From the NCBI GenBank assembly GCA_014879845.1, contig JACSRI010000223.1:1-37977 (forward strand): a stretch of 37,977 bases of DNA, in the 5' to 3' direction. Both the position numbers and the translations under genes were made by a program. The stretch is from Opitutaceae bacterium (GTDB lineage Bacteria > Verrucomicrobiota > Verrucomicrobiia > Opitutales > Opitutaceae). Shown here one piece after another: positions 2,726 through 26,648 of this stretch; within the stretch, counting starts at the first letter, position 1, and every line of letters starts with the position of its first letter. The notes under the pieces are model-generated. The model searched no databases and had not been told where the DNA came from. It saw nothing but the letters and a program-made list of their open reading frames with translations.

Positions 2726-5700
2726 TCAAGACACGCCGGATCGCGGCACCTGGCGCCACGCCCAGACGAAGGACACCAGCCCGAGCAGGATGCCGACAGC
2801 CGACATCGCGAGGGCGCGGTTCATTTCCTTGGGCCAATAGGAGAACCGCACCTCGTGGTCCCCTGCGCCGGGGATGACGATGCCCTTGAACGCGTGGTTG
2901 GCGCGGAAGTAGTCGACCTGACGGCCATCGAGAGTCACCCGGAAATCCTCAGGCACGAACCCCTCCGTCAAGACCACGACCCCGGGCCCGTCGGACCGCA
3001 CGCGAAATGTCGTGGTGTTGTTGGTCAGCCGGTAGTCGGTCGCTGCATACGCGGTCACCGGCGCCGGACCGCCGGCATCGAGCACGCCCTCCGGAAGCGA
3101 CACGCCGTCGAGGTCGCGAGCCTGGATCGCGGCGAACGGCTGGCCGAGGGGACCTGACTTCAGGCGCCCCACAAACTCATCCACCGACCCATAGGACCAG
3201 AGTCGGCTGGCGAAAAAGGCGCGCGGCCACGCGGTCTCGCTCTCGTAGATATCGAGATCCGCCGAAAGGCGGGGCGTGAGCCCGCTCATCCGCTCCGCCG
3301 GAGTCCCGGGAGGAGCAAGGTGATAGCGCACGTTGAGCGCATCCAGCGCCGGACGAAGCGTCGCGGCCTTGTCCTCGTTCCATTGGCTCCAGTCGCCGAC
3401 ACCCAGGCCCCAGAAGAGTTTCAGGATGCCGGCCGCGCGCGCGAACTCGTCGAGGTAGCCGTTGCGCAGGGGATCGGCGCCGTAGATCCCCTCCCAGCCG
3501 AACATCGTGTTGAATCCCGAGAAGAGCGCGTACCGAAGGCCGTTGGGTCGCGAGGGCTCAGTCATGTGCTCATCGACAAACGCCACGGACGGCGGCCTCA
3601 CGTGAAACGACGCCCGCACCTTGGGATTCACGACGTAGGCGTCGAACGGCGTGCGCAGATACGTGCCGTGTCGCCACACCATCACGACCGCGGCCGCGCC
3701 CAGAAGGAACACCGCCAGACCCGGCGACCGGCGGAGGCGCGCCGAGCTGAGGACAAGGATCACCACGGCGAGGGCGAGAGCCACGGATGGCAGGTAGGCG
3801 CGGAAGAAGGGGCTGTAGGTCGTCGCCGGCGCGGAGCCGAAATAGAGCCAGCCGAGCAGGATCACCCCAGCGGCGAACTTCAGGCAGTCCCGCGCCGCGG
3901 CCGGTCCGCCCGTCCCGGTGCACATCAGGCGGATGCCCCCGCCGGCGAGCACGGTCGCGATCACCACGAGGGCGGTCGCGAAGGTGCTGTCGACGTGGTT
4001 GATGTTGGCGACCAGCGGCACCTTCAGTATCCAGGATGCGGGCACCAAGCCGAAGACGACCGCCGCCGTGGCGGCGAACCCGACCGCCAATGCCACGGCC
4101 CCGCGATCGCCGAACGCCTCACGCGGCCGGATGACGATCCACCCCAGGCCGCAGAGCACGACCAGATTGGCCGCAGGCATCGCGTACGGCTCCCCGGGCC
4201 ACAGCGCGCGGAAGAGCATGTCCTCGAACAGCCCCGCGAACTGCCACGGCTTGGCCTGCACGACGGCGGCCACCGTGTGCACGGTCGCCGTCCGTTCGAG
4301 CGTGCCGAGAAAGACCATCCAGGTCGGCGCCGTGGCGAGCACATAGGCGCATCCCCAGAATCCGGCCCAGCCTGCGCGCACCAGGCGCATGCGCCACGGC
4401 GCGCGATCGACCAGCACCAGGACCAGACCGGTGAAGTTGAGGCAGACCATGATCATGGCCGCCTCCTTCACCGTGCCGCTGACGTGCACCTGCCAGTTGG
4501 CCAGCGCGAGCAGCGCCCCGCGGACCGCGAGCTCGCGCGGACCGGAGGCCGAGCGCAGGCCGAGCCACGCGACCAGGATCCAAGGCGCCGCCGTGAGCGA
4601 GAATTGGGCGGGATGATTGAGCCGGAACCCGAAGAAGCCGATGAACACCGCGGTCGCCGCGATGATCAGCGCGCTGGGCAGGTGCCGGATCCACAGCCAC
4701 ACGGCCAGGCCACACCCGAACGCGTACATCCATCGTGCCACGACGTACCGCACATCCCAGGCCCACGCTTCGCCGCCCGAAAGCACGACCGGGATGCTGA
4801 GGAGTTCGCCAAACATCAGCTGCCCCTGACCCAGCGCGGGCACGCCGCACATGGTGTAGCGATTCCAGAGCGGGAGTTCGCCGTCGCGGAGGATCGCGTC
4901 GCGGACGATCTTGGGCGCAAACAGGTGCCCGTAGAAGATGGCTCCCGTATCCGAACCTTTCGGATCCTCCAGAGGCTCCGTCTGGTATCCCGGAAGCGTG
5001 GGAAACCCCTCGTAGAGCAGGTACGTGCCGATATCCGGAGAGACGTAACTCTTGCCGAAGAAGATCACGGGGTGGCACTGGACGGCCACCGCCACGACAC
5101 TCACGACGGCGAGGCCGGCCACGGGATGTCGGGCCAACACCGGGGCCACGCGCCCGGCGAGCCGCGCCCAGGCCATGTGAACGAGCCATCCCCCGATCAG
5201 GAGAACCCCGGCAAAGGTCGCCCACCGCGACGCGTGCCGCCACACTGAGTTCCCGCGCAGGAGGATCAGGCGATGGGCCGGCTCGAGGCGCACCGTGAGG
5301 ATCGGGTCCCGTTGGCCCGGCTCGATCTCGACCCGAAATCCGTCGGCCCGGACCTCAGTGGATCGCACCTGTTGCACGGCCTCGAAGTTCTCCGGCCCGA
5401 TGCGCCCGAGCAGGCGACCCTCGGCCTCCTCGAATCGAGGATTCGTGACTTCGACCCATGTCGCGGTATCGGTCGGATCGAAACGCAGGGCCGTCACGCC
5501 GAGGTCCGGCAGCGGAAACCGGCACGTGACCGGCGGTCCGCCGGCCGTCACCGCCACGCTGACCGCGTCGCGGGCGTTGAAATGCTCGCCGGCGTCGTAG
5601 AACAGCTCCGCCCGTCCGGGCGCGTCGGCCGCGATCTCGGCGACGAACGCGACGCGCGACTGCGTGCGCGGGTCAATGGCGAAAAACGGCAGCGCCGCCG

Positions 5701-5848
5701 CGACTGCAAGCAGGCAGCAGATCAGCACAAACACCAGGGCCGGGCCGCGGGACACACGCACGGGGCGACAGTGGATCGCCCGCCCGCCGGATCCACTCCG
5801 AAACGCCACCCGCTCAGCCCGGCCCGCCCTCGTGCGCACCGATGACAT
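2726..5848 (-). CDS. YfhO-like polytopic membrane protein (paralogue 1)
   Basis: The protein has 1040 aa from the ATG; GTG codons at 5761 or 5755 would give an N-terminus closer to its paralogues. After one membrane helix (about 36-56) comes a beta-rich module (about 66-197; LFYDAG, FPLPDLG, LRFDP), a second helix, then a multi-spanning core with the YfhO hallmarks CHPVIFFGKSYVSPD, ELPLWNRYTMCGVPALGQGQ and FGFRLNHPA. A final periplasmic part has WPRAFF, YRLTNNTTTF and DFRVTLDGRQVDYFRANHAF, ending in a last helix. Characterised YfhO proteins use polyprenyl-linked sugars to glycosylate envelope polymers on the outer face of the membrane. Role here is inferred from family and from the GT2 genes nearby. 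It is divergent from the transaldolase gene. Confidence 0.8.
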   Translation of the reverse strand: MSSVRTRAGRAERVAFRSGSGGRAIHCRPVRVSRGPALVFVLICCLLAVAAALPFFAIDPRTQSRVAFVAEIAADAPGRAELFYDAGEHFNARDAVSVAVTAGGPPVTCRFPLPDLGVTALRFDPTDTATWVEVTNPRFEEAEGRLLGRIGPENFEAVQQVRSTEVRADGFRVEIEPGQRDPILTVRLEPAHRLILLRGNSVWRHASRWATFAGVLLIGGWLVHMAWARLAGRVAPVLARHPVAGLAVVSVVAVAVQCHPVIFFGKSYVSPDIGTYLLYEGFPTLPGYQTEPLEDPKGSDTGAIFYGHLFAPKIVRDAILRDGELPLWNRYTMCGVPALGQGQLMFGELLSIPVVLSGGEAWAWDVRYVVARWMYAFGCGLAVWLWIRHLPSALIIAATAVFIGFFGFRLNHPAQFSLTAAPWILVAWLGLRSASGPRELAVRGALLALANWQVHVSGTVKEAAMIMVCLNFTGLVLVLVDRAPWRMRLVRAGWAGFWGCAYVLATAPTWMVFLGTLERTATVHTVAAVVQAKPWQFAGLFEDMLFRALWPGEPYAMPAANLVVLCGLGWIVIRPREAFGDRGAVALAVGFAATAAVVFGLVPASWILKVPLVANINHVDSTFATALVVIATVLAGGGIRLMCTGTGGPAAARDCLKFAAGVILLGWLYFGSAPATTYSPFFRAYLPSVALALAVVILVLSSARLRRSPGLAVFLLGAAAVVMVWRHGTYLRTPFDAYVVNPKVRASFHVRPPSVAFVDEHMTEPSRPNGLRYALFSGFNTMFGWEGIYGADPLRNGYLDEFARAAGILKLFWGLGVGDWSQWNEDKAATLRPALDALNVRYHLAPPGTPAERMSGLTPRLSADLDIYESETAWPRAFFASRLWSYGSVDEFVGRLKSGPLGQPFAAIQARDLDGVSLPEGVLDAGGPAPVTAYAATDYRLTNNTTTFRVRSDGPGVVVLTEGFVPEDFRVTLDGRQVDYFRANHAFKGIVIPGAGDHEVRFSYWPKEMNRALAMSAVGILLGLVSFVWAWRQVPRSGVS

Positions 5849-5890
5849 CGTCCTTGCCGAACGGACGCCGGCACCGCTCTATTCCAGCAC
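5849..5890. promoter_or_regulatory. Short divergent intergenic region
   Basis: Only 42 bp separate the ATG codons of the YfhO-like gene (minus) and the transaldolase gene (plus), so both promoters would have to overlap here or inside coding sequence. If the YfhO-like gene starts at a GTG near 5755-5761 the gap grows to about 130 bp. No clear -35/-10 pair can be read. Confidence 0.35.
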
Positions 5891-6610
5891 ATGTCCTCGC
5901 TGGGGAACCTCAAAATCCAGATCTATGCCGACGGCGCCGACAAGGCCGGCATCCTGGACCTCTACGCCAAGCCCTACATCAAAGGTCTGACGACCAACCC
6001 GACCCTGATGCGCAAGGCGGGGATCGCCGACTACGAGGCCTTCGCGCGCGATATCCTGCAGCACGTCACGGCCAAGCCCATCTCGTTCGAGGTCTTCTCC
6101 GACGACTTCCCCGAGATGCGACGCCAGGCGCTGAAGATCGCGGGCTGGGCCCCGAACGTCTTCGTGAAGATTCCGATCACCAACGCGCGCGGCGAGAGTT
6201 CCGTGCCGCTGATCGGCGAACTCGCGCGCGAGCGGGTGCAGATCAACGTCACGGCCATGCTCACGCTCCAGCAGCTGCGCGAGGTCGCCGCCCTGCTGCA
6301 TCCCGAGGTGCCGTCGATTGTCTCGATCTTCGCGGGGCGCATCGCGGACACCGGAGTGGATCCCGAGCCGATCGTGCGCGAGGCGCTCACGATCATCCGT
6401 CCCCTGCCCAAGTGCCAGTTGCTCTGGGCCAGCGTGCGCGAGGTGCTCAACATCATCCAGGCCGAGCAGGCGGGTTGTCACATCATCACGGTGACGCACG
6501 ACGTGCTGGCCAAGGCGGCCAAGCTCCTCGGCATGGACCACACCGCGCTGTCGCTCGACACCGTGCAGATGTTTGCGCGCGACGCCGCGGCGGCCGGCTA
6601 CCGGCTCTAG
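5891..6610 (+). CDS. Transaldolase-family aldolase (short, TalC/Fsa-like)
   Basis: The protein has 239 aa and is a TIM-barrel class I aldolase of the small transaldolase branch. IYADGAD (11-17) carries the N-terminal Asp, GLTTNPTLM (32-40) is the transaldolase signature, FEVF (66-69) follows, and VFVKIPITN holds Lys93, placed as the Schiff-base lysine. The length is near TalC/Fsa (about 215-240 aa) rather than the 310-340 aa TalB type. True transaldolases interconvert sedoheptulose 7-phosphate plus glyceraldehyde 3-phosphate with erythrose 4-phosphate plus fructose 6-phosphate. Placement beside heptose-pathway genes suggests supply or reshaping of a sugar phosphate for the polysaccharide; a fructose-6-phosphate aldolase or a dedicated sugar synthase is also possible. 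Confidence 0.85.
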   Translation: MSSLGNLKIQIYADGADKAGILDLYAKPYIKGLTTNPTLMRKAGIADYEAFARDILQHVTAKPISFEVFSDDFPEMRRQALKIAGWAPNVFVKIPITNARGESSVPLIGELARERVQINVTAMLTLQQLREVAALLHPEVPSIVSIFAGRIADTGVDPEPIVREALTIIRPLPKCQLLWASVREVLNIIQAEQAGCHIITVTHDVLAKAAKLLGMDHTALSLDTVQMFARDAAAAGYRL

Positions 6611-6690
6611 CGTCACCCGACGCCACCAGCCCCATCGCATCCGATGCGCGCGAGAATCCGCACGCGGACGAAGCCGCCGAGGAAGCACCA

Positions 6691-6708
6691 GGGCGCGGGT
6701 GCGCGCCC
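6691..6708 (+). terminator. GC hairpin after transaldolase gene
   Basis: GGGCGCG (6691-6697), a GGTG loop and CGCGCCC (6702-6708) form a perfect 7-bp stem, 80 bp after the transaldolase stop and 57 bp before the next start. There is no T-tract, so it may be a weak terminator or an mRNA-stabilising structure. The surrounding 155-bp spacer shows nothing else recognisable. Confidence 0.35.
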
Positions 6709-6765
6709 CGCCGCGCCCGGGGCCGCGCGGATCCATAGATGCCTGGATTGAGTCAATTCGCCGCC

Positions 6766-9303
6766 ATGAACACCCCGGCCACACCTCAAACCGCACCGTG
6801 GCCCTTCCGGCGCTGGGTGCTCGCGCTCGCCTGCTTCCTCGCGGTGTTTGGCGCCCGCGTGTGGTTCGTCGACCGCTTCGGCTCCGACCTCCCGACCTGG
6901 GACCAATGGGGCGCCGAGGGCGAGAGCCTGCTGCTTCCCTTCGAACAGGGACGCCTGCGGCTCGCAGATCTCTTCATCCCGCACAACGAACACCGCGTCG
7001 TCGCCACCAAGCTGCTCGCGCTCGGCCTCTATCGGGTCAACGGCCAGTGGGACGCCCGCCTGGAGTGCGTGACGAACGCCGCGATGGTCGGCGTCTTCGT
7101 CGCGGTGCTTTTCCTCTTCGGCCGTCGCCTCGTGCCGCCCCGCTGGGAACTCGCCTGGCTCGCCGCATTGCTCGCGCTCTTCGCCGCCCCGATGTCGTGG
7201 CAGAACATCCTCGGCGGTTTCCACACGCAGCAGACGTTCCTGATCGCCTTCTCGTTCGCCGCGATCGCGGGCCTGGGCACGTGTCGCGCCCTGTCGGCGG
7301 GCTGGTGGCTGGGCGGTCTCGCTGCGTTCGCGGCGCTGTTCACGATGGGCTCGGGTCTGCTGGCCGCCGCCGCGGCCGCCGCGACGGTGATCCTGACCTA
7401 CGCCCCGCGCGAGGTGGTGCGCAGGCACGCGGTCACCGTGGTGGTCTGCGGCGCGGTCGTGGCTCTTGGTCTGCGCCTCCACACCTCGGTTTCCTACCAC
7501 GACTATCTCAAGGCCCATTCGGTCCAGGATTTCCTGCTCTGCTTCTGGCGCAGCCTGCAGTGGCCGCAGGTGAAGGTGCCGGTGTATGGCCTGGTGAGCT
7601 GGCTCCCTTGGGCGATCGTGGCGTGGACCGTACGTCGGCGCGGTGAGGCTGCACCGGCCGGCGAGCGCCTGCTGACCGGCGCCGGGATCTGGGTGCTCCT
7701 GCAGTTCGCCGCCTCGGCCTACGCGCGCGGCGCCGACGGCGCCTGGCCGGCTGACCGCTACCTCGACACGGTCGCGTTTGGCATCGCGCTCAACCTCCTC
7801 GCGCTCCTGCGTCTTCTCAGCCGCACGACGCCGACCGGCTGGCGACGTCCGGTGCGCGCGCTCGCCTGCGTCGCGGGCGCCGGCATGCTCGCACACGGCT
7901 GGTGGGGCCATGTGTCCAGGATGATCGGGGTAGAGGGCCCCACCCTTCGCGCCGAGCACATCGACCGCGAACAGCACACCCGCGCCTACCTGCTCACCGG
8001 CGATCCCTCGTGGCTGAAGGAGGGACACATCCCGTATCCGAACGCCTATGACCTCAGGAAGTTCCTCGATCACGACGAGATTCGTCGCGTGTTGCCGGCG
8101 AGCGTGCGCGCACCAATCGCGGTCCCGGGCATGGCGGCGCCCGACGGTGGGTTCGTCGTTCCAGGACTGCCGGCGGCGGTCGGGACACTGACCGGATGGC
8201 CGATGGTCGGGACCTTTGCCGTGGACGGGGCCGCGACGACGGCTACGTGGCAGAGTGGACCACTTCCGCAGTCCCGATTCAGCCGGTGGCTGCTGCCCAC
8301 GGTCTCGGAGACACCGAACGCATCGGGACTCCAGGTCGAGATCCTCGAAGGCCCGGCCACGCGGCCCATCGTGCTGTCCGCGGCGAACGATCCGCGCCTG
8401 CCCCACCCCGGATGGAACCTGGCCGTCGTCGCGGCTCCGGGCGCCGGCGCGCTCCTTCGCGCGCGCGATGCCTCGCCCGACGCCTGGCTCGCGGTGGGCG
8501 CCCCGGTGGAGATGGCGCCCGGGTCGTATTGGGCGTGGCAGCTGGCGCGGTGCGGTCTGTCCCTCTTTTGGACCGGCGTGATCGGGGCCGCATGCTTAGG
8601 CCTGGGCTTGGTCGCACCAGGTGTATCCGCGGCGGCGTTGTTGGCGCGCTGGCGCACGACCGTGGCCCGTCAATCGCGGCGCAGCTCCGTCGCGGTCGCG
8701 GCTGCCGCGGCTGCCGTCGCCGGCGGCATGGCCTTCCTCGCGACCGACCCCCGGGACCCTGCGTTTTTCGTCGCGACGATCCGCGGCGACCTCAAAGGCA
8801 ACAGCGTCGAGCTCTTCTACGATCGCGGACACGGCATCCGCGGAGCCGATTCGGCCCAGTGCTGGTTCGACCACGACCTCCACGAGCGCGCGATGCGGCT
8901 GCCGCTGCCGGCGGGCAACTATCGCAAGCTTCGTTTCGACCCCATGGACTACGGCGCCGCCACCCTGATCGAAGCTCCACGCATCGAGGACGCGGATGGA
9001 AGCGTCCTGCTCGAAATCACCCCCGCGATGTTCGAACCGCGGCGGGACATCGCCGACGTGCGCGCACAAGGGCGCGACACCCTCGTCGTCGCCACGCCGG
9101 ACGGCGGCGACCCGCAGCTGATGGTCGCATTGACTCCGAAACTGCGGACGATCCCGATCGCCTACTCTCCCTGGCCCCGACGCATCGTGATCGTCCTGAG
9201 CGCCATCCTCGCGGCGGTACTGGCGCCTCTTGCGATCGCCTGGATCACTGCCCGCCGCGCCCCCGCGCACACCGAACCCAAGACCGTACATCATCCGGCA
9301 TGA
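6766..9303 (+). CDS. GT-C-like polytopic membrane protein with C-terminal beta module
   Basis: The protein has 845 aa from ATG 6766 (an in-frame ATG at 6739 would add nine residues). The N-terminal half has about ten membrane helices. After helix 1 lies a periplasmic loop with TWDQWGAEGE (44-53) and IPHNEHRV (71-78), the DQW..E and HNEHR motifs of a widespread uncharacterised bacterial family resembling GT-C glycosyltransferases. Residues about 450-600 are a soluble beta-rich region. Residues about 640-665 are a helix, 667-798 a beta-rich module shared with the YfhO-like neighbours (ELFYDRGHGIRG, MRLPLPAG, LRFDPMDYG, DPQLMVAL), then a final helix. The stop overlaps the next start (ATGA), so the two are probably translated together. 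A role in envelope glycan transfer is inference. Confidence 0.75.
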   Translation: MNTPATPQTAPWPFRRWVLALACFLAVFGARVWFVDRFGSDLPTWDQWGAEGESLLLPFEQGRLRLADLFIPHNEHRVVATKLLALGLYRVNGQWDARLECVTNAAMVGVFVAVLFLFGRRLVPPRWELAWLAALLALFAAPMSWQNILGGFHTQQTFLIAFSFAAIAGLGTCRALSAGWWLGGLAAFAALFTMGSGLLAAAAAAATVILTYAPREVVRRHAVTVVVCGAVVALGLRLHTSVSYHDYLKAHSVQDFLLCFWRSLQWPQVKVPVYGLVSWLPWAIVAWTVRRRGEAAPAGERLLTGAGIWVLLQFAASAYARGADGAWPADRYLDTVAFGIALNLLALLRLLSRTTPTGWRRPVRALACVAGAGMLAHGWWGHVSRMIGVEGPTLRAEHIDREQHTRAYLLTGDPSWLKEGHIPYPNAYDLRKFLDHDEIRRVLPASVRAPIAVPGMAAPDGGFVVPGLPAAVGTLTGWPMVGTFAVDGAATTATWQSGPLPQSRFSRWLLPTVSETPNASGLQVEILEGPATRPIVLSAANDPRLPHPGWNLAVVAAPGAGALLRARDASPDAWLAVGAPVEMAPGSYWAWQLARCGLSLFWTGVIGAACLGLGLVAPGVSAAALLARWRTTVARQSRRSSVAVAAAAAAVAGGMAFLATDPRDPAFFVATIRGDLKGNSVELFYDRGHGIRGADSAQCWFDHDLHERAMRLPLPAGNYRKLRFDPMDYGAATLIEAPRIEDADGSVLLEITPAMFEPRRDIADVRAQGRDTLVVATPDGGDPQLMVALTPKLRTIPIAYSPWPRRIVIVLSAILAAVLAPLAIAWITARRAPAHTEPKTVHHPA

Positions 9304-12300
9304 AACGCCCCACCTTCACCGAGCTGCTCGCACTCGCCGCGTTCTGTCTCGTCGCGGTCATCCCTTTCCATCCGCAGCGCGACGAGGTCGTCGCCGAGTA
9401 TCTGTTCGAGGTGCGCATGGCCTCGACCACCACCGGTGAACTCCGGCTCTACTTCGACGATGGGGCCGGCCTGCGCGAGTCGCTCGCCTCGGCGACGCAG
9501 GTCTTCGCCGGGCCTGACCTGGTGGACTATCGCCTCCGCGTGCCCGCGCGCGAACTGCGTGCCATCCGGGTGGACCCCATCAACACCCCGGCGACGCTCG
9601 ACCTCACCGGCGCCCGCATCACCGCGGCCGACGGCACGGTCGTCCGTACCTTCGCCCTGGAAGAGTTCAAGCCCGCCTTCCAGATCGACGCGCTCGCGAT
9701 CGAGGGCGACCGTCTCCATGTCGTCACGACACCGGGAGGCATCGATCCGCAGCTGATGCTCAGCTTCGATCCTCCCCTGCGCCTGGAGTCGGCGCTGCCC
9801 CAGCCGCTCCGCGTCTCGCTCTGGCGCGCGCTCGGCCTGTTCGCGGTCGGCCTCATCGCGCTCATGACCGCGGGCCGTCACCCGGCCGCCCGCGAACTCG
9901 GAAACCGCGTGCGCGCCTGGGCCGCCGCCCGGCCCGGACGCGCGGTCGCTGCGATCGCCTTCGCCGCGGCCGTCTTCAGCTGCCACCCCGTCGTCTTCCT
10001 CGGGCGCAGCTTCGTGTCGCCAAACTTCTCGGACGGCACGATGCTGCTCTACGAGCGGTTTCCCACGCTGCCTGGATACACCGACGCACGCGTCACCGAC
10101 GCCAACGGCTCCGACGTCGGCGCGATCGCGTGGCACCACCATCCGCTCTCGATCATCGAGCACCGCGCGCTCTTCCGCGACGGCGAGCTGCCGCTGTGGA
10201 ATCGCTATGACTCGGCCGGCGTGACGCTGCTCGGCCAGGGCCAGTCGATGTTTGGCGACCCGCTCCACATCGTGCCCATCGTCTTCAATGGCGCGGGCTG
10301 GGCCTGGGACGTGAAATACGTCCTCGCGCGCTGGCTGTTCGCCTGCGGCCTCGGGCTCGTCGTTCTGCGGCTCACGCGCCACGCGCCGTCGGCGTGGATC
10401 ACCGCGCTTTCGAGCGCGTTCGTCGGCTTCTTCCTCTATCGCGTCAACCACCCGGCCTACTTCTCCTTCTGCTACGCGCCGTGGATGCTCTACGCCTGGG
10501 CGCGCATCGCCGACGCGCCGACGGCGCGCCGCGCGATACTCTGGATCTGCGCGCTGATCGTCGCCACCTTCGCCGAACTCACGAGCGGCACGGCCAAGGA
10601 GGCCTACATGCTGCTCATCGGGCTCAACTTCACCGGCGCGGTCCTGGCGCTGGTGCAGCCCGAGCCGTGGCGGACGACTGCGGCGAAACTGGGCCTGAGC
10701 GCGGCCGGCGGCGTCGTCTTCGCGATGCTCAGCGCCCCGATCTGGGTCACGTTCATGGACGCCCTCGCGCGCGCCTACACCTCGTACAACAACCCGGCCG
10801 CCTTCCAGATCCTGCCGACCCTGCTCCCCGGCTTGTTCGACGAGTTGTTCTACCGCCCCATCCACGCCGAACTGCGCGTGCTCAACCCGTCGGCCAACTT
10901 CCTCGCGCTCGCCGGCGTGCTCTACGCGGTGGCCACCCTGCGGCGGGTGCGCATCGAGCGGGCGTTCCTCGCGCTCGGGATCGGCGCGGCGGTGCCCTTC
11001 CTCATCGCGTTCGGCGTGGTGCCCCCGCAGTGGCTCGTGAAGATTCCCTTCCTCGCCAACGTTGTGCACATCGACAACACGTTCTCGTGTCTGTTGATCG
11101 TCCACCTGCTCGTACTGGCCGGATACGGCTACCGCACCGCGGCGGCGCGCCTTGGCACCCCGGAGGGCCGCGGCGACATCGTCGTGGTCGCGGCTCTGCT
11201 CGTCGCCCACTTCATCCCCTACCTCGCCTACCTGCACACAGTACTGCGCGAGCCGTTCGGGCCGGGCACGGTCTTCAAAACGCTGGCGTGGGGCCAGCGC
11301 GTCCCGCTCCCGGCATTCGTCCTGGTCGACCTCGTCGCCCTGCCGGCCGCCTTGCTCGGGGGCCTCCTGCTCGTGCGCCGCGCGCTGCGCCTGCCGCGGG
11401 GATGGACGACCTCGGTCGTGCTGGCTCTGGCGACCTGCACCGTGGTCCTGCTCTGGCGCCACGGTCAGCAAACCTCGAACGCACTCAAGCCCTACGTCTT
11501 CTCGCCGGCCACGCGCGTGGATTTTCACGCCGTGTCTCCAGCGATCGCCTACATGCGCGCCCAAAGCGCCGAGCCGTACCGCGTGGTGGGGTTCAATGGC
11601 AACCTCTTCCCGGGCTGGAGCGCGGCCTACGATGTCGAGAGCATCTCCGGACCGGACGCCGTGGCCAACGCGCACTACCGGGAGTTCGCCGAGGCCTGCG
11701 GCATCACTCGCATCTGGGACTGGCGCCTCTACGTCGAGGCCGAGTCGCTCGGACGCCTTCGCCGCGTCTACGATGCGCTGGGCGTGCGCTATTTCCTCGA
11801 TCCGGGCACGGATGACCCGCGCATCACCCGCGAACTGCCGCGCGTGCTGCGCGGCGACCTCGATGTCTACCGCAGCGACACGGCGTGGCCGCGGGCCTTC
11901 TTCACCAACCGCATCGCACCCTACACCGATGCCGCCGCGCTCGGGCGGATGATCCGCGAGGGCGACGGCAGGCCGTTCGCGGCCATGCAAGCGGGCGACA
12001 CGCGGCCGCCGGTCGACGTGGCGGAGTCGCTCGACGGTCGCGTCGTGACACCGGCCAGGGACTACGCGCTAACGACCAACTCCACCAGCTTCACCGTCGA
12101 GACCTCGGGCCCGGGACTCATCGTCCTGCACGAGGCCTGGCTCAAGGGTGACTTCCGCGCGACGCTCAACGGCGAGCGTGTCAAATACGTGCGCGTGAAC
12201 CACGCCTTCAAGGGCATCGTCGTCGATCGCGCCGGTACCTACCGCGTGTCGTTCGCGTATTGGCCGAAGCGATTCACCGAGACGCTGATTGCAGCCGGCA

Positions 12301-12386
12301 TCGCAGCCGCCGTGCTGCTCGCCGCAACGGTGTTCGCCCTGCGTGACGCGCGGCGGGTCTCCGCACCCGCGGCCCCTCAGGCCTGA
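9300..12386 (+). CDS. YfhO-like polytopic membrane protein (paralogue 2)
   Basis: The protein has 1028 aa from the ATG that overlaps the preceding stop as ATGA; the open frame upstream of 9300 is a shadow. Its layout is that of paralogue 1: helix (about 8-24), beta-rich module (31-164; LRLYFDDGAGLRE, IRVDPIN, DPQLMLSFDP), helix, then the YfhO core with CHPVVFLGRSFVSPN, ELPLWNRYDSAGVTLLGQGQ, YRVNHPAYFSFC and ELTSGTAKEA. The C-terminal extracytoplasmic part has WPRAFFTNR, YALTTNSTSF and DFRATLNGERVKYVRVNHAF, then a last helix. It is probably in the same transcript as the gene before it. Its end overlaps the end of the convergent methyltransferase gene by 10 bp. Substrate unknown. Confidence 0.82.
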   Translation: MKRPTFTELLALAAFCLVAVIPFHPQRDEVVAEYLFEVRMASTTTGELRLYFDDGAGLRESLASATQVFAGPDLVDYRLRVPARELRAIRVDPINTPATLDLTGARITAADGTVVRTFALEEFKPAFQIDALAIEGDRLHVVTTPGGIDPQLMLSFDPPLRLESALPQPLRVSLWRALGLFAVGLIALMTAGRHPAARELGNRVRAWAAARPGRAVAAIAFAAAVFSCHPVVFLGRSFVSPNFSDGTMLLYERFPTLPGYTDARVTDANGSDVGAIAWHHHPLSIIEHRALFRDGELPLWNRYDSAGVTLLGQGQSMFGDPLHIVPIVFNGAGWAWDVKYVLARWLFACGLGLVVLRLTRHAPSAWITALSSAFVGFFLYRVNHPAYFSFCYAPWMLYAWARIADAPTARRAILWICALIVATFAELTSGTAKEAYMLLIGLNFTGAVLALVQPEPWRTTAAKLGLSAAGGVVFAMLSAPIWVTFMDALARAYTSYNNPAAFQILPTLLPGLFDELFYRPIHAELRVLNPSANFLALAGVLYAVATLRRVRIERAFLALGIGAAVPFLIAFGVVPPQWLVKIPFLANVVHIDNTFSCLLIVHLLVLAGYGYRTAAARLGTPEGRGDIVVVAALLVAHFIPYLAYLHTVLREPFGPGTVFKTLAWGQRVPLPAFVLVDLVALPAALLGGLLLVRRALRLPRGWTTSVVLALATCTVVLLWRHGQQTSNALKPYVFSPATRVDFHAVSPAIAYMRAQSAEPYRVVGFNGNLFPGWSAAYDVESISGPDAVANAHYREFAEACGITRIWDWRLYVEAESLGRLRRVYDALGVRYFLDPGTDDPRITRELPRVLRGDLDVYRSDTAWPRAFFTNRIAPYTDAAALGRMIREGDGRPFAAMQAGDTRPPVDVAESLDGRVVTPARDYALTTNSTSFTVETSGPGLIVLHEAWLKGDFRATLNGERVKYVRVNHAFKGIVVDRAGTYRVSFAYWPKRFTETLIAAGIAAAVLLAATVFALRDARRVSAPAAPQA

Positions 12387-13183
12387 CCGGGGCCTGACTG
12401 CACGCGCGGCTTCCGTCCGATCGCGATCACCTGCCAGCCGAAGCGGCTGTCCGCGGTGTTGAACCGGAAGAGAAACCGGTAAACCGCCATCGCCGCAGCC
12501 GCCAGCCCGCCCGGACCACGGTCGGCCCGCTGCTCGATGTCCGCCGTGAGCCGCTTGCCGCGCGCGATGACCGTGAGGCGGTAGAGATTGAAAAACGGGA
12601 AGCCCGCCATGCGCACGCGCTCGACAGCGTAGCCGGCGGCATGAAACACGGCGGCGATGGAGTCGCGCGTGAAATGCTGCCGGTGGCCGATATGGCGATC
12701 AAAGGCCGACATCGGCCCCGAGGGCACGGTCACGACCACGGCGCAGTCGTCGCCCAGGCAGACCGATGCGGCGCGCAGAAACGCCTCGGGCGAGTCGACG
12801 TGCTCGAGCACCTCCGAACACACCGCATGCGTGGCCCATCCGGCGAAACGCTGCAGTTCAGCCGGCGGTGAGAACAGGTCGGCCACGAGCAAGGTCGCAT
12901 CCGGCACCTTGGCCCGGGAGATCTCGACACCGGAGTGGCTCAGCTCGAGCCCGAGCAACTCCGCCTCCGGGAAGGCGGCACGGAGTTTCACGAGCAGGTC
13001 ACCCTGCCCGCTGCCGAGGTCGACGATGCGCAGCGGACCGGATCCCCTCCGTGCACGGATCTCCGCGACGACGGCGTCGTGGCGCATCTGCTGGGCGGGA
13101 TTGAGGCTCGCCGCGGCGGCGTAGCGGTCCCAGTGCGTGTCCCAGTCGTCGTGGGCGGCGCGCTGCGGGTTCTCCGTGGACAT
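12377..13183 (-). CDS. Class I SAM-dependent methyltransferase
   Basis: The protein has 268 aa. IVDLGSGQGD (53-62) is SAM motif I, LLGLELS motif II, and AVCSEVLEHVDSPEAFL the EVLEH segment, with a VVVTVPSGPM strand after it, as in Methyltransf_11/UbiG-like enzymes. The later part (RQHFTRDSIAAVFHAAGY, PFFNLYRL, FRFNTADSRFGWQVIAIGRK) is typical of methyltransferases in polysaccharide and lipid clusters. The ATG at 13183 was chosen over upstream in-frame sequence because that sequence is antisense to nothing conserved and overlaps the GT2 gene 26 bp upstream. It is the last gene of a minus-strand trio after the SDR and GT2, so a modified sugar or its lipid carrier is a likely acceptor. That is inference. 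Confidence 0.85.
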   Translation of the reverse strand: MSTENPQRAAHDDWDTHWDRYAAAASLNPAQQMRHDAVVAEIRARRGSGPLRIVDLGSGQGDLLVKLRAAFPEAELLGLELSHSGVEISRAKVPDATLLVADLFSPPAELQRFAGWATHAVCSEVLEHVDSPEAFLRAASVCLGDDCAVVVTVPSGPMSAFDRHIGHRQHFTRDSIAAVFHAAGYAVERVRMAGFPFFNLYRLTVIARGKRLTADIEQRADRGPGGLAAAAMAVYRFLFRFNTADSRFGWQVIAIGRKPRVQSGPGQA

Positions 13184-13209
13184 CGTTGATGCGTGGCGGC
13201 CGGACGCCC

Positions 13210-14427
13210 TCACGCCCCGCGCTGCTCGACGAGGCGCTTGGACATCTCGAGCAGCAGCGTGAATCCAAACGTCTGGAAACCCGCGAGGATGAGCATCAGG
13301 CCGAGGATGGCCGGGTAGGACACCGACGTGAGTGCGAGGTCGCGCTGGATCCAGGTCCACGCCAGGACGCCGTCGAGCAGCGTGCCGATGGCCGCGAGCA
13401 CGATGGCCAGCCAGACGCCGCGGTTGTAGGTGAGGTGCCGCGCCAGCCACGTGTCGAGACCGGGGCGCAGACCGTGCATGACACGGGCGATCACCGCGAT
13501 CTGGATACAGCTGTAACCGAGCGTCGCGCTGGTCATGCCGAGCAGCATCCAGTGCAGGTTGAAGCCGATGCGCCCGATCGTAAGCGGCCCGGCGAGCCCC
13601 AGCGGCAGCGCCAGCGCGAGGCCGAGCACGAGCAGCAGGATGCCGGGCTTCATCAGGAACGAATCCGGCGAATAGATCAGCATCGCCCGCAGGTTGATCC
13701 AGCCGGCGATCCACGGGGACAGCCAGCCGGCGCGGCGATGGTGGCTGATGCGCCCCTCCCGGTCCTTGTAGAACTTCACCGGGACCTCGGCCAGCTTCAG
13801 GTGCAGTCGCGCGGCCTTCAGAACCATCTCGGAGGCGTATTCCCAGGACTGCGAGCGCAGGTCGATCTTGAGCAGCGCCTCGCGCGTGAGCCCGCGCATG
13901 CCGCAGTGGATGTCGCTGTAGCGGCTCTTGTAGATCCGATTGAGGATCCACGTGGTCAGCGGCGTGCCGAAGTAGCGGTGCAATGCCGGCATGGCGCCGT
14001 CCTCGATGGAGCCGCGGAAGCGGCTGCCCATGACGAACTCCGCGCCGCGACGGAACTCATCCACGAATTTGTCGAGTTCACGAAAATCGTAAGTGAGGTC
14101 GGCATCGCCCATCACGATCCACTTCCCGCGGATGAACGGGATCGCGTCGATGTAGGCGCGGCCGAGTCCGCGCTTGGGCACGCGCAGGACCTCGCCGCCA
14201 CGGGCGAGCACGATGTCGGGCGTCTCATCGGTCGAGCTGTCGACGATGAGGATCTGCGCGGAGACGCCGGCGCGGCGGATGCCCTCGTGACACCAGTCGA
14301 CGAACTCACCGACGGTCAGCGCCTCATTGAGCGCCGGGACGACGATCGTCAGTTCCACGGGCTCGGGCACCAGACCCGCGGGCAGCAGGTGCTCGATCCG
14401 GTCCGGGGCGCGGCGCGCGTCAGCCAC
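13210..14427 (-). CDS. GT2 glycosyltransferase, DPM/GtrB-like with C-terminal membrane helices
   Basis: The protein has 405 aa from GTG 14427, which overlaps the SDR stop by eight bases. LTIVVPALNEALTVGEFV starts the GT-A fold, ILIVDSSTDETPDIV carries the nucleotide-binding Asp, GDADLTYDF is the DXD metal site, and SRFRGSIEDGAMPALHRYFG with YSDIHCGMRGLTREAL is characteristic of dolichyl/polyprenyl-phosphate sugar synthases. The last third holds about four membrane helices, as in GtrB and related proteins. Such enzymes move a sugar from a nucleotide to polyprenyl phosphate on the inner membrane face. It lies between three YfhO-like genes, which could be the downstream transferases. The longer reading frame to 14526 is rejected because it would run 107 bp into the SDR gene. 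Confidence 0.85.
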   Translation of the reverse strand: MADARRAPDRIEHLLPAGLVPEPVELTIVVPALNEALTVGEFVDWCHEGIRRAGVSAQILIVDSSTDETPDIVLARGGEVLRVPKRGLGRAYIDAIPFIRGKWIVMGDADLTYDFRELDKFVDEFRRGAEFVMGSRFRGSIEDGAMPALHRYFGTPLTTWILNRIYKSRYSDIHCGMRGLTREALLKIDLRSQSWEYASEMVLKAARLHLKLAEVPVKFYKDREGRISHHRRAGWLSPWIAGWINLRAMLIYSPDSFLMKPGILLLVLGLALALPLGLAGPLTIGRIGFNLHWMLLGMTSATLGYSCIQIAVIARVMHGLRPGLDTWLARHLTYNRGVWLAIVLAAIGTLLDGVLAWTWIQRDLALTSVSYPAILGLMLILAGFQTFGFTLLLEMSKRLVEQRGA

Positions 14428-15382
14428 GGCGGATTTCCTCCCGCATCGCCGCCATCGCATCGTGCACGGCCTGCCGCGACGTGCGCCGGCAGCGCCAACC
14501 GAGCGACTCGATCTTCGCGCAGTCAAAGCGCACGATCGGCACGTCGCCCTTCCACCCGCGGTCGCCGCCGGTGTATTCGAAACGCACGCTTCCCGGCTCG
14601 AGGCCGCAGACCTCGACCGCGAGCTCCGCGATCTCGGTCACGGTAATGTAGTCGCCGGTGGCGACATTGAAAATATCGTAGCGCGCCGGGCAGCGCTCAC
14701 CCGCGGTGAAGACCGCGTCGAGGATGTCGTCGACGTGGATGTAGCTCTTGCTCTGGCTGCCGTCGCCGAGGATGCGCAGGCGCGTCGGGTCGGCCTGGAG
14801 ACGGCGGACAAAGTCGTAGCCCACGCCGTGCGTCTGGCGCGGGCCGACGACATTGGCGAAGCGGAAAGCCCGCGCCTCGAGCCCGAACATGTGGCAATAG
14901 GCGGCGATGAGAGCCTCGCACGCGAGTTTGCTCGCGCCGTAGGTGGAGATCGGGATGCACGGCCCGTAGGATTCGGCGAAAGCGACGCCGGCATTCTCGC
15001 CATAGACGCCGCTGCCGGAGGTGTAGAACATCCGCCGCACGCCGGTGACACGCACGGCCTCCAGCACGTTTTGCAGGAGGTAGGTGCCCTCCCAGAAATC
15101 GATGTCGGGCTGGGTCACGGCCTTGGCGATGTCGGGATTGGCGGCGAGGTGGAAAACCGTGTCGCAGCCGGCCATCGCCGCCTCGATCTTGGCGCGGTCC
15201 TTCAGGTCCTCGGTGACGATGCGCAACCGCGGCTCCCCCGCCACACCCGCGAGATGCGTGTGCGTACCGGAGGAGAAGTTGTCGAAGACGACGACCTCGC
15301 GAGTTTCCGGGCGCGCGAGCAACCGCGCCACCAGGTGGCTGCCGATGAAGCCGGCGCCTCCGCTAACAAAGATGCGCTGCAT
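14420..15382 (-). CDS. NAD-dependent sugar epimerase/dehydratase (extended SDR)
   Basis: The protein has 320 aa. [14 protein letters not shown] (4-17) is the extended-SDR NAD-binding motif, FHLAANPD the strand-beta4 motif, YTSGSGVYG carries the catalytic Ser/Thr, and YGASK the catalytic Tyr and Lys. FANVVGPRQTHGVGYDF and QSKSYIHVDDI match UDP-glucose/UDP-N-acetylglucosamine 4-epimerase relatives. It acts on a nucleotide sugar in the cytoplasm. It is the first gene of the minus-strand trio and overlaps the GT2 gene by eight bases, so its product is plausibly the GT2 donor. The exact sugar cannot be read from sequence. Confidence 0.88.
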   Translation of the reverse strand: MQRIFVSGGAGFIGSHLVARLLARPETREVVVFDNFSSGTHTHLAGVAGEPRLRIVTEDLKDRAKIEAAMAGCDTVFHLAANPDIAKAVTQPDIDFWEGTYLLQNVLEAVRVTGVRRMFYTSGSGVYGENAGVAFAESYGPCIPISTYGASKLACEALIAAYCHMFGLEARAFRFANVVGPRQTHGVGYDFVRRLQADPTRLRILGDGSQSKSYIHVDDILDAVFTAGERCPARYDIFNVATGDYITVTEIAELAVEVCGLEPGSVRFEYTGGDRGWKGDVPIVRFDCAKIESLGWRCRRTSRQAVHDAMAAMREEIRRG

Positions 15383-15611
15383 GGCTCGTGTGAGGTCTGC
15401 GTTGGTTCAGCTCCATGGACGAACCGCGACTGCAAGCCCCCGCCCACCCCGCCGCAAGCCGATTCGCCCCCGTGAAACCGGCGCGCGACCCGCGAGCTTC
15501 TTGCCTCTCTTATCCGTCCACCCAAGCTCCCCGGGTGGCCCATCGGAGACACCTCGTCGAACTCGTCCTCGGACTGCGTCGCGTCCGCACACGCCGGAGC
15601 CGAGCCGCGCG
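15383..15611. promoter_or_regulatory. Divergent promoter region
   Basis: This 229-bp gap separates the start of the minus-strand SDR-GT2-methyltransferase operon from the third YfhO-like gene on the plus strand, so at least two outward promoters are expected. A 6-bp inverted repeat (CCACCC and GGGTGG, about 15518-15538) is visible. No convincing sigma-70 boxes, operator or riboswitch can be identified, and no Shine-Dalgarno precedes the ATG at 15612. Confidence 0.4.
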
Positions 15612-18600
15612 ATGACCACGGGCACCCGCGCGTTCCGGCCGTGGCTGCATCGGGCAATCGCCGCCGTGGTGCTCCTCGCGATCGGCCATGTCGTGTACGT
15701 CGAGGACGACCCGCGCCACCAGCCGTCGAGCTACGTCCTGGAAATCCAGCTCGCGACAAGCGCGAGCGGCTCCGCCCAAGTGTTCTTCGATCGTGGGGCG
15801 GGTTTCCGGCAGGAGGACTCCAGCTCGGCCGCGGTCGCGGCGTCGAGCGAACTTAGGTCGATGCGTTTCCCACTTCCGCTCGGACCGGTTCGTCGTCTCC
15901 GCCTGGACTATGTCAACGGCGCGGACGCGGCGGCGACACTGCGCGATATGCGTGTCATCGACGCGGCGACCGGTGCGGTGATGAGGCACATCGCGGCGGC
16001 CGACCTCCGGCCCAACGACCACATCGCTGCGTATCGCGTCGACGGTGACACCGTGCACGTCACCGCACGTCCGGGCGCCGACGATCCTCACCTGGTGGCA
16101 GCGCTGGACCCGGTCCTGCACCTGGGACCCTCGGGGCCCGCGCGGTTGCGCGGACGACTCCCGATCTACCTGGGTCTCGTGGGTGTGTTTGTGACGCTGG
16201 CATGGGTGATCGATGCGGCCGGAAATCGGAGGCAAAGGCGCGAGTGCGCCGGCCGGCCCGGCTGGCTCGACGGGCTGAACGCGCGACCGCGCCTGGTCAT
16301 CACGGCTGCCGCGGTCGTCGCCACCGCAGCCTGTTGCCACCCCGTGATCTTTGCCGGACGCAGCCTGGTTTCGCCGGACTACGGCGTCGCGCTCCTTCAT
16401 CCCGACCACGGCGACGCTGGCACAGACGACCGCCGCATACGCGCGAACGATCACGGTTCGGACACGGGCGCCATGTTCTGGCAACACCTGCCCTACAGCG
16501 TCGTGCAACACCGGGCCCTGGCCGGCGAGGCGGCGCTGCCCCTGTGGAATCGCTACAACTCCTGCGGTGTCGCGCTGTTCGGCCAGGGACAATCGATGCT
16601 CGGCGATCCGCTGCATCTGCCGGTCATCCTGGCCGGCGGCGCGGCTTGGGCGTGGGATGCGAAGTTTGTCGCCGCGCGACTTCTCTTCGCGCTCGGCGTC
16701 GGGCTGGCAGCCTTCGCCGCGACGCGCCGTCTCGGTCCGTCGGCGTTGGCGACCGTGTGCGCGCCGTTCATCGGATTCTTCAGCTATCGCCTCAATCATC
16801 CGGCCGTGATCACCGTGTGCTACTCGCCGTGGCTCCTCGTGGCGTGGCTGGAGCTGGCACGCGTGCGGGAGGTCCGCGCCAGCGGCCGTTGGTTCGTGCT
16901 GCTCATCACAGCCAACGCCTGTGTGTTGACCAGCGGCACGGTCAAGGAGGCGGCGATGCTCGCACTCGTGCTCAATGCGACCGGGCTCCTCGCCGTGTGC
17001 TTCGCTCCGCAGGCTCGCGCCGTGAAGACCCGCCTCACGGGAATCGCGCTCGTGCTCGGCCTCGGCGGTGTGCTGCTCGCGGCCCCGTGGTGGACGGCGT
17101 TTGCCCACACCCTGGCCTCGGCCTGGACCGCCTACGATACGCCCTATGCGGCACGCATCCCGATCGGGCGCCTGGCCGGACTGTTCGACGGCCTGCTCTA
17201 CGCGGAATACACGAGAGAGCGCTACGTCTACGCCCCGTCGGCGAACTTCCTTGTGCTGCTCGGCGTGCTCCTCGCGCTCCTGCGGTGGCGTGCGCTGCCC
17301 GGGCAGCGGTCCGCGGCCGCGCTCGCGGCGGGCCTGGCGGTCGCGATCTCGCTGGCGTTTGACGTACCGTGGATTCCCGACTCATGGATCCTCGCGGTGC
17401 CGGGCCTGCGCAGCGTCGGACATCTGGGAAACACCTTCTCGTGCGTGGCACTGCCGCTCCTGGCCGTGCTGGCGGCTCAAGGACTCGCGGCGGCGATCGA
17501 GGCCGTGGCATCGGACGCGGCGGATCGGCGCAGCACGGGACGATGGAGGGATGCGCTCGGCATCGCCGTCCTCGCCGCCGTCTTGGTGGCGCCGATGCTG
17601 CGCGATCTCACACGCACCTGGACGGGTGCGAGTCCGGGGCGCGGGCCGGCTTCGCTCTGGACCGACCACGGCTACCTCTGGCTCTCGCTCGTCGGGGCGC
17701 TCGTCGGCTGGGCCGTACTCGGGCTGGCGCTACGAAGGCTGGAGGGGCGCCCGAAAGAGACGGGGGCCGGCATCATGCTGCTGATCGCGGGGCTCGTGCC
17801 CCTGCTGGCCCGCCACGGGCAGGTGCTCGGCGACGACTACGCGGCCTACTTCGTGCGACCGGGAATGCGGGCGAACCTCTCGGCCGGGTCGCCGGCCCTC
17901 AATTGGGTCCGTTCCACCGCAGGCGAACCGTTCCGGCTCGTCGGTCTGTCGGGCCACGTCGTGGCCGGATTTGCAGCCGTGCACGGCATCGAGAGCCCGA
18001 ACGGACCCGACGCGCTCGCGCATCGACGCTATCGCGAGCTGGCCGAGGCGACCGGACTGGCCCCCACGGTCGACTGGTATTTTCCGACCGAACGGTCCGA
18101 TCTCGCCACCCGACGCCGCATCCTCGACGCGTTGAACGTGCGTTTCTATGCGACCTGCGACGCATCGGCGCCTGCACCCGACTGGATGCGGCCCATACAC
18201 GCCGCCGATCTCGCGATCCTTGAGAGCCCGAGCGCCTGGCCGCGGGCGTTCTTCGTCGATCGTCTCGCGACCGGCGCCACGGCGGCGGATTTTGTCCGCC
18301 TGCTCGAGGCCGGAGATGGGCGCCCGTTCGCCGCGGTCGCGCCCGAAGACCTGCAGCCGGGCGACGCGCCGGCGGGGGTCGACTTGGCCGATCGCATCGT
18401 CGTGCCAGCGACGGACTATCGACTCACCACGCAAGCCAGCGAATTCAGCATCGCAGCACCGGGGCCGGGGCTGATCGTCCTCCTCGAGGCGTGGCAGGCG
18501 GGCACGTGCCGGATCACCATCGACGGCGCACCGGCCGAAATGGTCCGAGTCAACCATGCGTTTGCCGGCCTGCGAATCGACCGGGCGGGGTTTCATCGCA

Positions 18601-18719
18601 TCCGATTCGAGGCCTGCCACCCGGCCCCGATCCTCGCGCTGGGCCTGGCCGCGGTCGGGCTCGTGACGCTCGTCTTCACGCTCGTCGGCCTGTGCCGCCA
18701 CCCCGTGCCGCCGCCCTGA
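15612..18719 (+). CDS. YfhO-like polytopic membrane protein (paralogue 3)
   Basis: The protein has 1035 aa; ATG 15612 is chosen because it gives an N-terminal helix placed as in the paralogues, whereas the open frame upstream overlaps the divergent SDR gene. Helix (about 12-30), beta-rich module (41-171; QVFFDRGAGFRQED, FPLPLGPV, LRLDYVNG, DDPHLVAAL), helix, then the YfhO core with CCHPVIFAGRSLVSPD, ALPLWNRYNSCGVALFGQGQ, FSYRLNHPAV and LTSGTVKEAAML. The end has AWPRAFFVDR, YRLTTQASEF and CRITIDGAPAEMVRVNHAF before the last helix. It differs from the other two in an AWQAGTCRITIDG segment and several short deletions. Function as for the family; the three copies may act on different sugars or acceptors. 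Confidence 0.82.
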   Translation: MTTGTRAFRPWLHRAIAAVVLLAIGHVVYVEDDPRHQPSSYVLEIQLATSASGSAQVFFDRGAGFRQEDSSSAAVAASSELRSMRFPLPLGPVRRLRLDYVNGADAAATLRDMRVIDAATGAVMRHIAAADLRPNDHIAAYRVDGDTVHVTARPGADDPHLVAALDPVLHLGPSGPARLRGRLPIYLGLVGVFVTLAWVIDAAGNRRQRRECAGRPGWLDGLNARPRLVITAAAVVATAACCHPVIFAGRSLVSPDYGVALLHPDHGDAGTDDRRIRANDHGSDTGAMFWQHLPYSVVQHRALAGEAALPLWNRYNSCGVALFGQGQSMLGDPLHLPVILAGGAAWAWDAKFVAARLLFALGVGLAAFAATRRLGPSALATVCAPFIGFFSYRLNHPAVITVCYSPWLLVAWLELARVREVRASGRWFVLLITANACVLTSGTVKEAAMLALVLNATGLLAVCFAPQARAVKTRLTGIALVLGLGGVLLAAPWWTAFAHTLASAWTAYDTPYAARIPIGRLAGLFDGLLYAEYTRERYVYAPSANFLVLLGVLLALLRWRALPGQRSAAALAAGLAVAISLAFDVPWIPDSWILAVPGLRSVGHLGNTFSCVALPLLAVLAAQGLAAAIEAVASDAADRRSTGRWRDALGIAVLAAVLVAPMLRDLTRTWTGASPGRGPASLWTDHGYLWLSLVGALVGWAVLGLALRRLEGRPKETGAGIMLLIAGLVPLLARHGQVLGDDYAAYFVRPGMRANLSAGSPALNWVRSTAGEPFRLVGLSGHVVAGFAAVHGIESPNGPDALAHRRYRELAEATGLAPTVDWYFPTERSDLATRRRILDALNVRFYATCDASAPAPDWMRPIHAADLAILESPSAWPRAFFVDRLATGATAADFVRLLEAGDGRPFAAVAPEDLQPGDAPAGVDLADRIVVPATDYRLTTQASEFSIAAPGPGLIVLLEAWQAGTCRITIDGAPAEMVRVNHAFAGLRIDRAGFHRIRFEACHPAPILALGLAAVGLVTLVFTLVGLCRHPVPPP

Positions 18720-22351: not shown

Positions 22352-22410
22352 CTCGTTCGCCACCTCCACCTTTCCAACGTCCGACCTTTTCACCCTTCAA
22401 CTCTCTCGCG

Positions 22411-23289: not shown

Positions 23290-23365
23290 CCAAGCCCAGA
23301 GGCCAGCTCCGAAGCGCCGAAGGACGTCCCCTGCCCTTCGTACCATTCAAGACTCCGCCAACGCC

Positions 23366-23434
23366 CTCAGTCCCTCACTCCTTCTTTCCCTCCCTCTCGC
23401 CTATCGCCCCTCGCCCCAAACCCTGCCTTTCCCT
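23366..23434 (+). other. Pyrimidine-rich leader before rmlB
   Basis: About 70 bases made almost wholly of C and T, including CCCTCACTCC, run up to the rmlB start with no purine-rich ribosome binding site. The same CCTCACTCC-type words occur in the leader of the SIS gene at 2022-2034. The remaining upstream spacer (23290-23365) shows no recognisable element. Confidence 0.4.
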
Positions 23435-24502: not shown

Positions 24503-24516
24503 CCCTCTTCTCCACC

Positions 24517-26548: not shown

Positions 26549-26623
26549 GATGGAGGGCCGGGCTCCCGCCCGGCCGCGAATGCGTTCCATTCACGCGTCC
26601 CGGCTGGAGCCGGGCCCTCCATC
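26549..26623. repeat. REP-like palindromic doublet
   Basis: Two outer arms of 17 bases (26549-26565 and 26607-26623, GATGGAGGGCC core) are inverted copies with one mismatch. Inside them sit two separate hairpins: GGCCGGGC/GCCCGGCC (26556-26563 with 26568-26575) and CCCGGCT/AGCCGGG (26599-26605 with 26608-26614). This doublet fills most of the 130-bp gap between the GT2 and GT4 genes and resembles bacterial REP/BIME elements. Confidence 0.6.
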
Positions 26624-26648
26624 AGTCTCCGTCGGCCATCCTCATCGC

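Follow-up and report, generated by a model that had tools for sequence, protein, structure and literature searches.

We describe a module of about 130 residues that is common to four membrane proteins encoded in a contig of 37,977 nucleotides from an Opitutaceae bacterium (Verrucomicrobiota; assembly GCA_014879845.1, contig JACSRI010000223.1), hereafter the window. The module probably represents a family akin to carbohydrate-binding modules (CBMs), which would bind glycan and hold the acceptor near the active site of glycosyltransferases of the GT-C fold. Its homology, fold class, membrane position and circular permutation, and the GT-C core of one host, were all computed. The four genes and segments proposed in an initial annotation of the window were confirmed (copies A to D, Table 1). 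The copies have pairwise identities of 26.7-35.4% and their alignment contains 16 invariant columns. When a hidden Markov model (HMM) built from three copies was searched against the 312 open reading frames (ORFs) of the window, the fourth copy was retrieved with E values of 1.6e-21 (A), 6.2e-26 (B), 1.2e-26 (C) and 2.6e-31 (D), whereas the best unrelated ORF scored 0.24-0.95. Hence, the likeness is far beyond chance, and the proposal of one homologous beta-rich module in four copies holds. These searches rule out a fortuitous or compositional resemblance between GC-rich, alanine-rich proteins, an explanation with shared composition and nothing beyond it in its favour, to which matches in 38 of 288 genomes and a single confident fold leave practically no credence.

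The motif pattern originally described is indeed shared, but it is looser than first written: copy C has LYFDDG, LRVP and IRVDP, and copy D has LRLDY, without the P. The nearly invariant residues are D26, G28, G30, P55, R63, D65, P66 and D122 (numbering of the copy B fragment). Building a profile from the segments and searching Pfam and genomes with it, the check proposed in advance, gave no named family and further copies in genomes. No match covering the module was found in Pfam, NCBIfam or PDB sequences, in agreement with the earlier failure to assign a family. The best of 71 module sequences scanned alone against Pfam had an E value of 0.011, with at most one member matching any given family, and none of the scanned hosts outside the window had a Pfam match over the module. 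No sequence match to a named CBM was found in Pfam either. Hemoglobin matches in one of the searches were discarded as noise. The literature searched, with most subscription journals outside it, yielded no description of the module. The family is thus nameless in these three resources, and it may have a name in CAZy/dbCAN, CATH, InterPro or the AlphaFold database. Emb, AftD and ORF12 are known examples of GT-C enzymes with CBM-like domains; the module is a separate family that the searched profile libraries miss.

The fold was predicted with AlphaFold2 for copy B, using the 71-sequence alignment. The model is confident (predicted local distance difference test, pLDDT, 93.0; predicted TM-score, pTM, 0.87) and has 11 strands and no helix of four or more residues. 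The closest neighbours according to VIA-align 2 were the C-domain of clostridial alpha-toxin (Z 7.0) and vCBM60 (2xfd, Z 7.0, 2.9 A over 100 residues), followed by lipoxygenase PLAT domains (Z 6-7) and 2xhh (Z 6.5), with lipase C-domains also among the best. In the whole-protein model of the YfhO-like protein P0003, residues 34-160 matched vCBM60 (Z 8.1, 2.8 A over 99 residues) and residues 33-163 matched 2xhh (Z 8.0). One of the domains of AftD matched the module at Z 3.8. The prediction therefore places the module among beta-sandwiches of the CBM/PLAT class, and nothing narrower. It resembles the vCBM60/CBM36 type (2xfd, 2xhh) in size and in forming a permutation pair, the title of entry 2xhh referring to a circular permutation that relates two CBM families, both calcium-dependent. 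Yet, their Z scores (6.5-8.1) are within the range of common arrangements, and their identity to the module is 6-13%, as for a common fold. By its predicted fold and the names of its hosts, the module is, like a CBM, a beta-sandwich appended to carbohydrate-active enzymes, and is presumably non-catalytic.

Three of the window hosts are YfhO-like proteins with an N-terminal module. In the predicted model of P0003 (pLDDT 76.5), the strands of copy C (residues 34-161) lie between two predicted transmembrane (TM) helices. Among 72 YfhO-like sequences with a full-length module match, the flank before TM1 contained on average 2.5 lysines and arginines vs 0.5 aspartates and glutamates, and the flank after TM2 5.0 vs 0.8. 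These positive flanks place the module outside the cytoplasm in the YfhO-like type. The initial annotation had each copy between two membrane helices; the model supports this for copy C, hydropathy and charge for the 72 relatives, and visual inspection of the adjacent hydrophobic stretches for copies A, B and D. From about residue 205 onwards, P0003 matched GT-C enzymes, notably AftD (6w98, Z 19.8 over 592 residues), OST (Z 19.3), ArnT (Z 15.4) and Emb (Z 11.0-12.4). The YfhO-like core thus has a predicted GT-C fold, as proposed for these hosts, in the one of the four window hosts that was modelled. The same model has C-terminal strands (residues ~848-987). The Pfam YfhO profile (PF09586) matched 9 of 13 full-length members of the family at E ≤ 1 (best 3.6e-9), but its cut-off was not reached in the window, where P0001 scored 14.6 bits (E 0.01; cut-off 28.5) and P0003 and P0004 had no match.

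This layout is that of the Emb proteins, as found in the P0003 model and in the topology of the 72 sequences: TM1, a beta-sandwich and TM2 ahead of the GT-C core, with a C-terminal beta part. Emb chains align to the P0003 core from their residues 251-270 on, and EmbB has, between TMH1 and TMH2, a periplasmic domain with a jelly-roll fold (PMC7305291). In contrast to this likeness, we found no sequence match between Emb and the module family, and the C-domain of EmbC is a CBM shown by experiment (PMC3044687), whereas ours is predicted. AftD, the best structural match to the core, has 12% identity to it, and its alignment leaves the module unmatched (model range from 211). ORF12 (GT136) of C. 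youngae O1 is likewise a GT-C enzyme, to which a beta-rich, O-polysaccharide-binding CBM is appended; that CBM is however C-terminal and is described as immunoglobulin-like (PMC11127046), a likeness drawn by description only. The ASRAH beta-sandwich family was likewise compared by description (PMC2739507), for its permutation relative to CBM4.

The module family seems to exist in two circularly permuted forms. In 15 copies, from sulfatases, WbsX-like and unnamed proteins, a strand of pattern g.L.i.S.G.DP.l precedes the body, whereas in the YfhO and GT2-GT4 types the equivalent strand follows it, at the C-terminus. Profile-profile comparison of the two types gave a probability of 99.3% and a score of 115.2 over the body only. 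When the first profile was rotated (body, then N-segment), the score rose to 131.8, with the match now reaching residue 124 of the copy B fragment; after column shuffling of the segment (150 replicates), the mean was 115.4 (standard deviation 1.1, maximum 121.0). Compared by itself with the C-terminal portion of the YfhO type, the N-segment scored 24.4, and its shuffled versions (200 replicates) had a mean of 6.9 (standard deviation 1.6, maximum 11.3). Since the bodies were gathered with the module profile, their likeness between types is partly by construction; the moved strand at its N-terminal place lay outside that search. An HMM of the sulfatase-type N-segment, searched against nine proteins, found the strand after the body in P0006 (independent E value, i-E, 4.5e-6) and P0005 (1.6e-3), and scored nothing above 3 bits on the other seven: the four window hosts, P0007 and two E. 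coli GT2 proteins. The E. coli GT2 copies seem to combine the unpermuted order with a GT-type body, their N-terminal strand being placed by a 20-bit alignment and by reading; strand order would therefore not follow function strictly.

Searching its own genome with the four-copy profile revealed three more copies on one contig (E values 1.0e-16, 4.3e-13 and 0.0037). A weaker match on another contig (E 0.36), by eye in the frame of a pyrroloquinoline-quinone-type dehydrogenase, was dropped. Two copies lie in tandem in a 422-residue protein (L009:3505-4773) that otherwise consists almost only of membrane helices, and one lies between the GT2 (21-191) and GT4 (627-780) Pfam domains of an 806-residue protein (L009:8999-11419). 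A fourth copy ends the kinase-like protein P0007 (L009:7537-8940), which has no Pfam match and whose relative in L053 has an APH match (2e-6). It was first placed by eye, and two profiles excluding P0007 then matched the body of this copy in a search of three proteins (i-E 3.5e-9 for A4 and 4.8e-4 for A1). These copies adjoin an ATP-binding cassette (ABC) ATPase with a Wzt_C domain and a methyltransferase. Locus L052 keeps the order Wzz-like protein (so called from its layout, with no Pfam match), two-module protein, Wzt, methyltransferase and kinase-like protein, and L053 keeps the last three. The set of methyltransferase, kinase and Wzt recalls WbdD, the chain terminator of E. coli O9a (PMC11127046). 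The two-module membrane protein (419-422 residues; L009:3505-4773, L052:7055-8311) thus has, in two genomes, a Wzz-like gene on one side and a Wzt ABC transporter on the other, and it is possibly a new part of ABC-dependent O-antigen assembly.

The module was carried by at least nine host types, so that the two architectures of the initial annotation are correct for the window and an undercount overall. A Pfam scan of 18 hosts outside the window named 11 of them, of which eight are glycosyltransferase, PMT_2, sulfatase or WbsX-like proteins and three are DUF7657, F5/8-type-C and APH kinase proteins. In the DUF7657/DUF7654 protein L056:4856-7513, the stretch ahead of DUF7657, blank in Pfam, is the module. 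From their enzyme domains, the GT2-GT4, kinase-like and E. coli GT2 copies would be cytoplasmic. Hence, the extracytoplasmic position first suggested stands for the YfhO-like hosts, by model and charge, but the family is not confined to that side of the membrane.

We surveyed 288 genomes of the phylum (E ≤ 1e-4). The module was matched in at least 38 of them and in at least 14 of the 25 genomes of the source's family, its own included; these counts are lower bounds because at most 14 candidates were scored per genome. Of 138 YfhO-like loci confirmed in a scan of named genomes, 80 were retained; of these, 79 were from Verrucomicrobiota (one of them Chthoniobacter flavus) and one from Planctomycetota, and 79 of their 90 core ORFs carry the module. 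The 11 others include three that start directly at the core (L106, L132 and one ORF of L137), from whose sequences the module appears optional, a diverged copy (L130, 34.7 bits), six fragments or ORFs at the edge of a stretch (L092, 561 residues; L097, 154 residues; L093, L105, L124 and L136), and L116. A tblastn search of 72,556 plasmids gave two weak matches (E 4e-3 and 5e-3), both on E. coli IncHI1B plasmids (L142, L143), in 804- and 805-residue GT2 proteins with the module near the N-terminus, encoded in an ABC-exporter polysaccharide cluster. The profile matched these copies with E values of 1.6e-12 and 2e-11 (eight proteins searched). Among 5,426 E. coli genomes, 15 contain DNA 74-100% identical to this region, located on a plasmid at 12 of the 15 places. 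The module is thus present in at least three phyla: Verrucomicrobiota, Planctomycetota and Pseudomonadota. DUF7657 had one match in 115 genomes of the phylum (controls: 0 of 14), and no paper on it was found in the literature searched.

Copy B stands apart, at the C-terminus of P0002, a protein that is GT-C-like by motif only. This copy on an unrelated type of host is present as first described, and it has no counterpart among relatives. We examined 101 loci, many of them partial, and found 32 P0002-related ORFs in 31; as two of these loci are one contig (L048, L080), this corresponds to 31 ORFs in 30 distinct loci. None of the 31 has a C-terminal module, so the TM-module-TM tail of P0002 was probably added in the local lineage. 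In a tree of the 71 modules, copy B grouped with copy A (89/90, on long branches and below the starred level), a hint that it came, perhaps, by transfer within the cluster from the neighbouring YfhO-like gene of P0001. In 26 of the 30 loci, the P0002-type ORF is followed within 0.8 kb by a YfhO-like ORF of the same strand or runs on into one; the exceptions are L041, L044, L061 and L078. Long P0002-type ORFs (1295-1389 residues) occur in four distinct loci (L041, L048, L081, L090), and those of L041 and L048 (1332-1389 residues) read as two fused P0002-type units.

The favoured function draws on analogy. The GT2 enzymes encoded in the cluster would attach a sugar to polyprenyl phosphate, and the GT-C core would transfer it outside, sugar transfer from such a donor being the putative activity of the window hosts. 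The module, suspended between two helices next to the core at the outer surface of the inner membrane, would hold the acceptor polysaccharide and present the chain to, or retain it at, the active-site groove. This role is modelled on the CBMs of EmbC, AftD and ORF12; those of EmbC and AftD are reported to interact with the acceptor (PMC11127046; for EmbC, also PMC3044687). The family would also serve cytoplasmic enzymes, judged by their domains, and probably secreted ones, with one edge strand moved by circular permutation. The YfhO matches in the family and two GT2 genes akin to dolichol-phosphate mannose synthase recall the three-component CsbB-GtcA-YfhO systems, which need such a synthase (no search was made for a flippase), whereas the three YfhO-like proteins of the window are below the Pfam YfhO cut-off. 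For S. aureus YfhO, a review suspects a domain that binds carbohydrate outside the cell (PMC8035078). We thus infer glycan binding, a role already suggested for the module and the one that best fits its fold and hosts, and likewise the biochemical step and recognition of acceptor rather than donor.

Several observations weigh against this role. It is built on prediction and analogy, with a putative ligand and site. Foldseek matched the copy B model to no PDB entry at E ≤ 0.001, and Z scores of 7-8 may reflect a mere common arrangement of small beta-sandwiches, PLAT-type and alpha-toxin domains scoring equally. The core persists in some relatives that lack the module, Pfam gave no name to seven of the 18 hosts outside the window, and the P0007 matches cover only the body of a copy initially placed by eye. 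The CBM of ORF12 binds unmodified O-polysaccharide and is dispensable for transfer (PMC11127046). The nearly invariant residues, mostly G, P, R and D, look as much structural as ligand-binding, which also favours a second, unlikely explanation: that, by packing onto a GT-C partner protein or the C-terminal beta domain, the module stabilises the enzyme or complex without binding glycan. In EmbB, the N-terminal jelly-roll touches the C-terminal tail, possibly stabilising the periplasmic portion (PMC7305291), P0003 has C-terminal strands of its own, and P0002-type genes lie directly upstream of YfhO-like genes in the 26 loci. However, GT2/GT4, sulfatase and WbsX-like proteins carry the module without an evident common partner. 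The related suggestion that it holds partner transferases together gains indirect support from the adjoining genes in most loci with both, but no contact through the module was seen. A PLAT/C2-like domain through which the protein sits on the head groups of lipids or on the polyprenyl donor appears quite improbable: the four window copies are at the membrane, and lipoxygenase PLAT domains and the C-domains of alpha-toxin and lipases rank high in structural similarity (Z 6-7), but sulfatases and soluble-type glycosyltransferases carry the module too, and vCBM60 ties or leads in the structural comparison.

Glycan binding by the module could extend further, to one recognition family in two permutations that serves the whole polysaccharide pathway, each member gripping the same nascent chain. 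In this scheme, which we regard as doubtful, soluble polymerising transferases and methyltransferase/kinase terminators would act inside, the two-module protein would be an adaptor between Wzz-like protein and Wzt, and, no less tentatively, GT-C proteins would decorate the chain outside.

Table 1. Features of the window and hosts of the module in other loci (L numbers).
Feature	Position	Strand	Remarks
Copy A	5255..5674	-	Residues 59-198 of YfhO-like protein 2726-5848
Copy B	8746..9165	+	Residues 661-800, in the C-terminal part of GT-C-like protein 6766-9303; all-beta by prediction
Copy C	9375..9803	+	Residues 26-168 of YfhO-like protein 9300-12386
Copy D	15708..16142	+	Residues 33-177 of YfhO-like protein 15612-18719
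YfhO-like protein P0001	2726..5848	-	1040 residues; N-terminal module
Second GT-C-like protein P0002	6766..9303	+	845 residues; DQW...HNEHR; GT-C by motif only; C-terminal copy B
YfhO-like protein P0003	9300..12386	+	1028 residues; predicted GT-C core; start overlaps stop of preceding gene
Predicted TM helix 1, ahead of copy C	9315..9368	+	Residues 6-23, P0003 model
Predicted TM helix 2, behind copy C	9798..9872	+	Residues 167-191, P0003 model
GT2	13210..14526	-	Weak likeness to dolichol-phosphate mannose synthase (E 8.4e-5); hydrophobic helices at the C-terminus, judged by eye; candidate synthase of a polyprenyl-phosphate-sugar donor
YfhO-like protein P0004	15612..18719	+	1035 residues; N-terminal module
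Second GT2	20969..21769	+	Dolichol-phosphate mannose synthase type (E 3.2e-23); likewise a candidate synthase of the donor; start codon provisional
Host, PMT_2	L041		
Host, DUF7657+DUF7654	L056		
Host, GT2	L060		
Hosts, sulfatases	L057, L059		
Host, WbsX-like	L028		
Host, F5/8-type-C	L038		
Hosts without Pfam name	L040, L043, L051, L054		

Elsewhere in the window, positions 1187-2657 encode an adjoining nucleotidyltransferase and SIS-domain protein, a pair that we take to suggest a nucleotide-activated heptose pathway. Genes of dTDP-rhamnose type were recognised by eye at 21806-25398. A GT4-type glycosyltransferase is encoded at 26550-28298; its N-terminal part is beta-rich by eye and unlike the module.

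The module spans at least three phyla and enzymes of different compartments. A name for the family would fill an unannotated stretch in many large glycosyltransferases and would help to address how YfhO/DUF7657-type proteins recognise their acceptors. It would also expose the two-module protein as a candidate new part of ABC-transporter-dependent O-antigen assembly.

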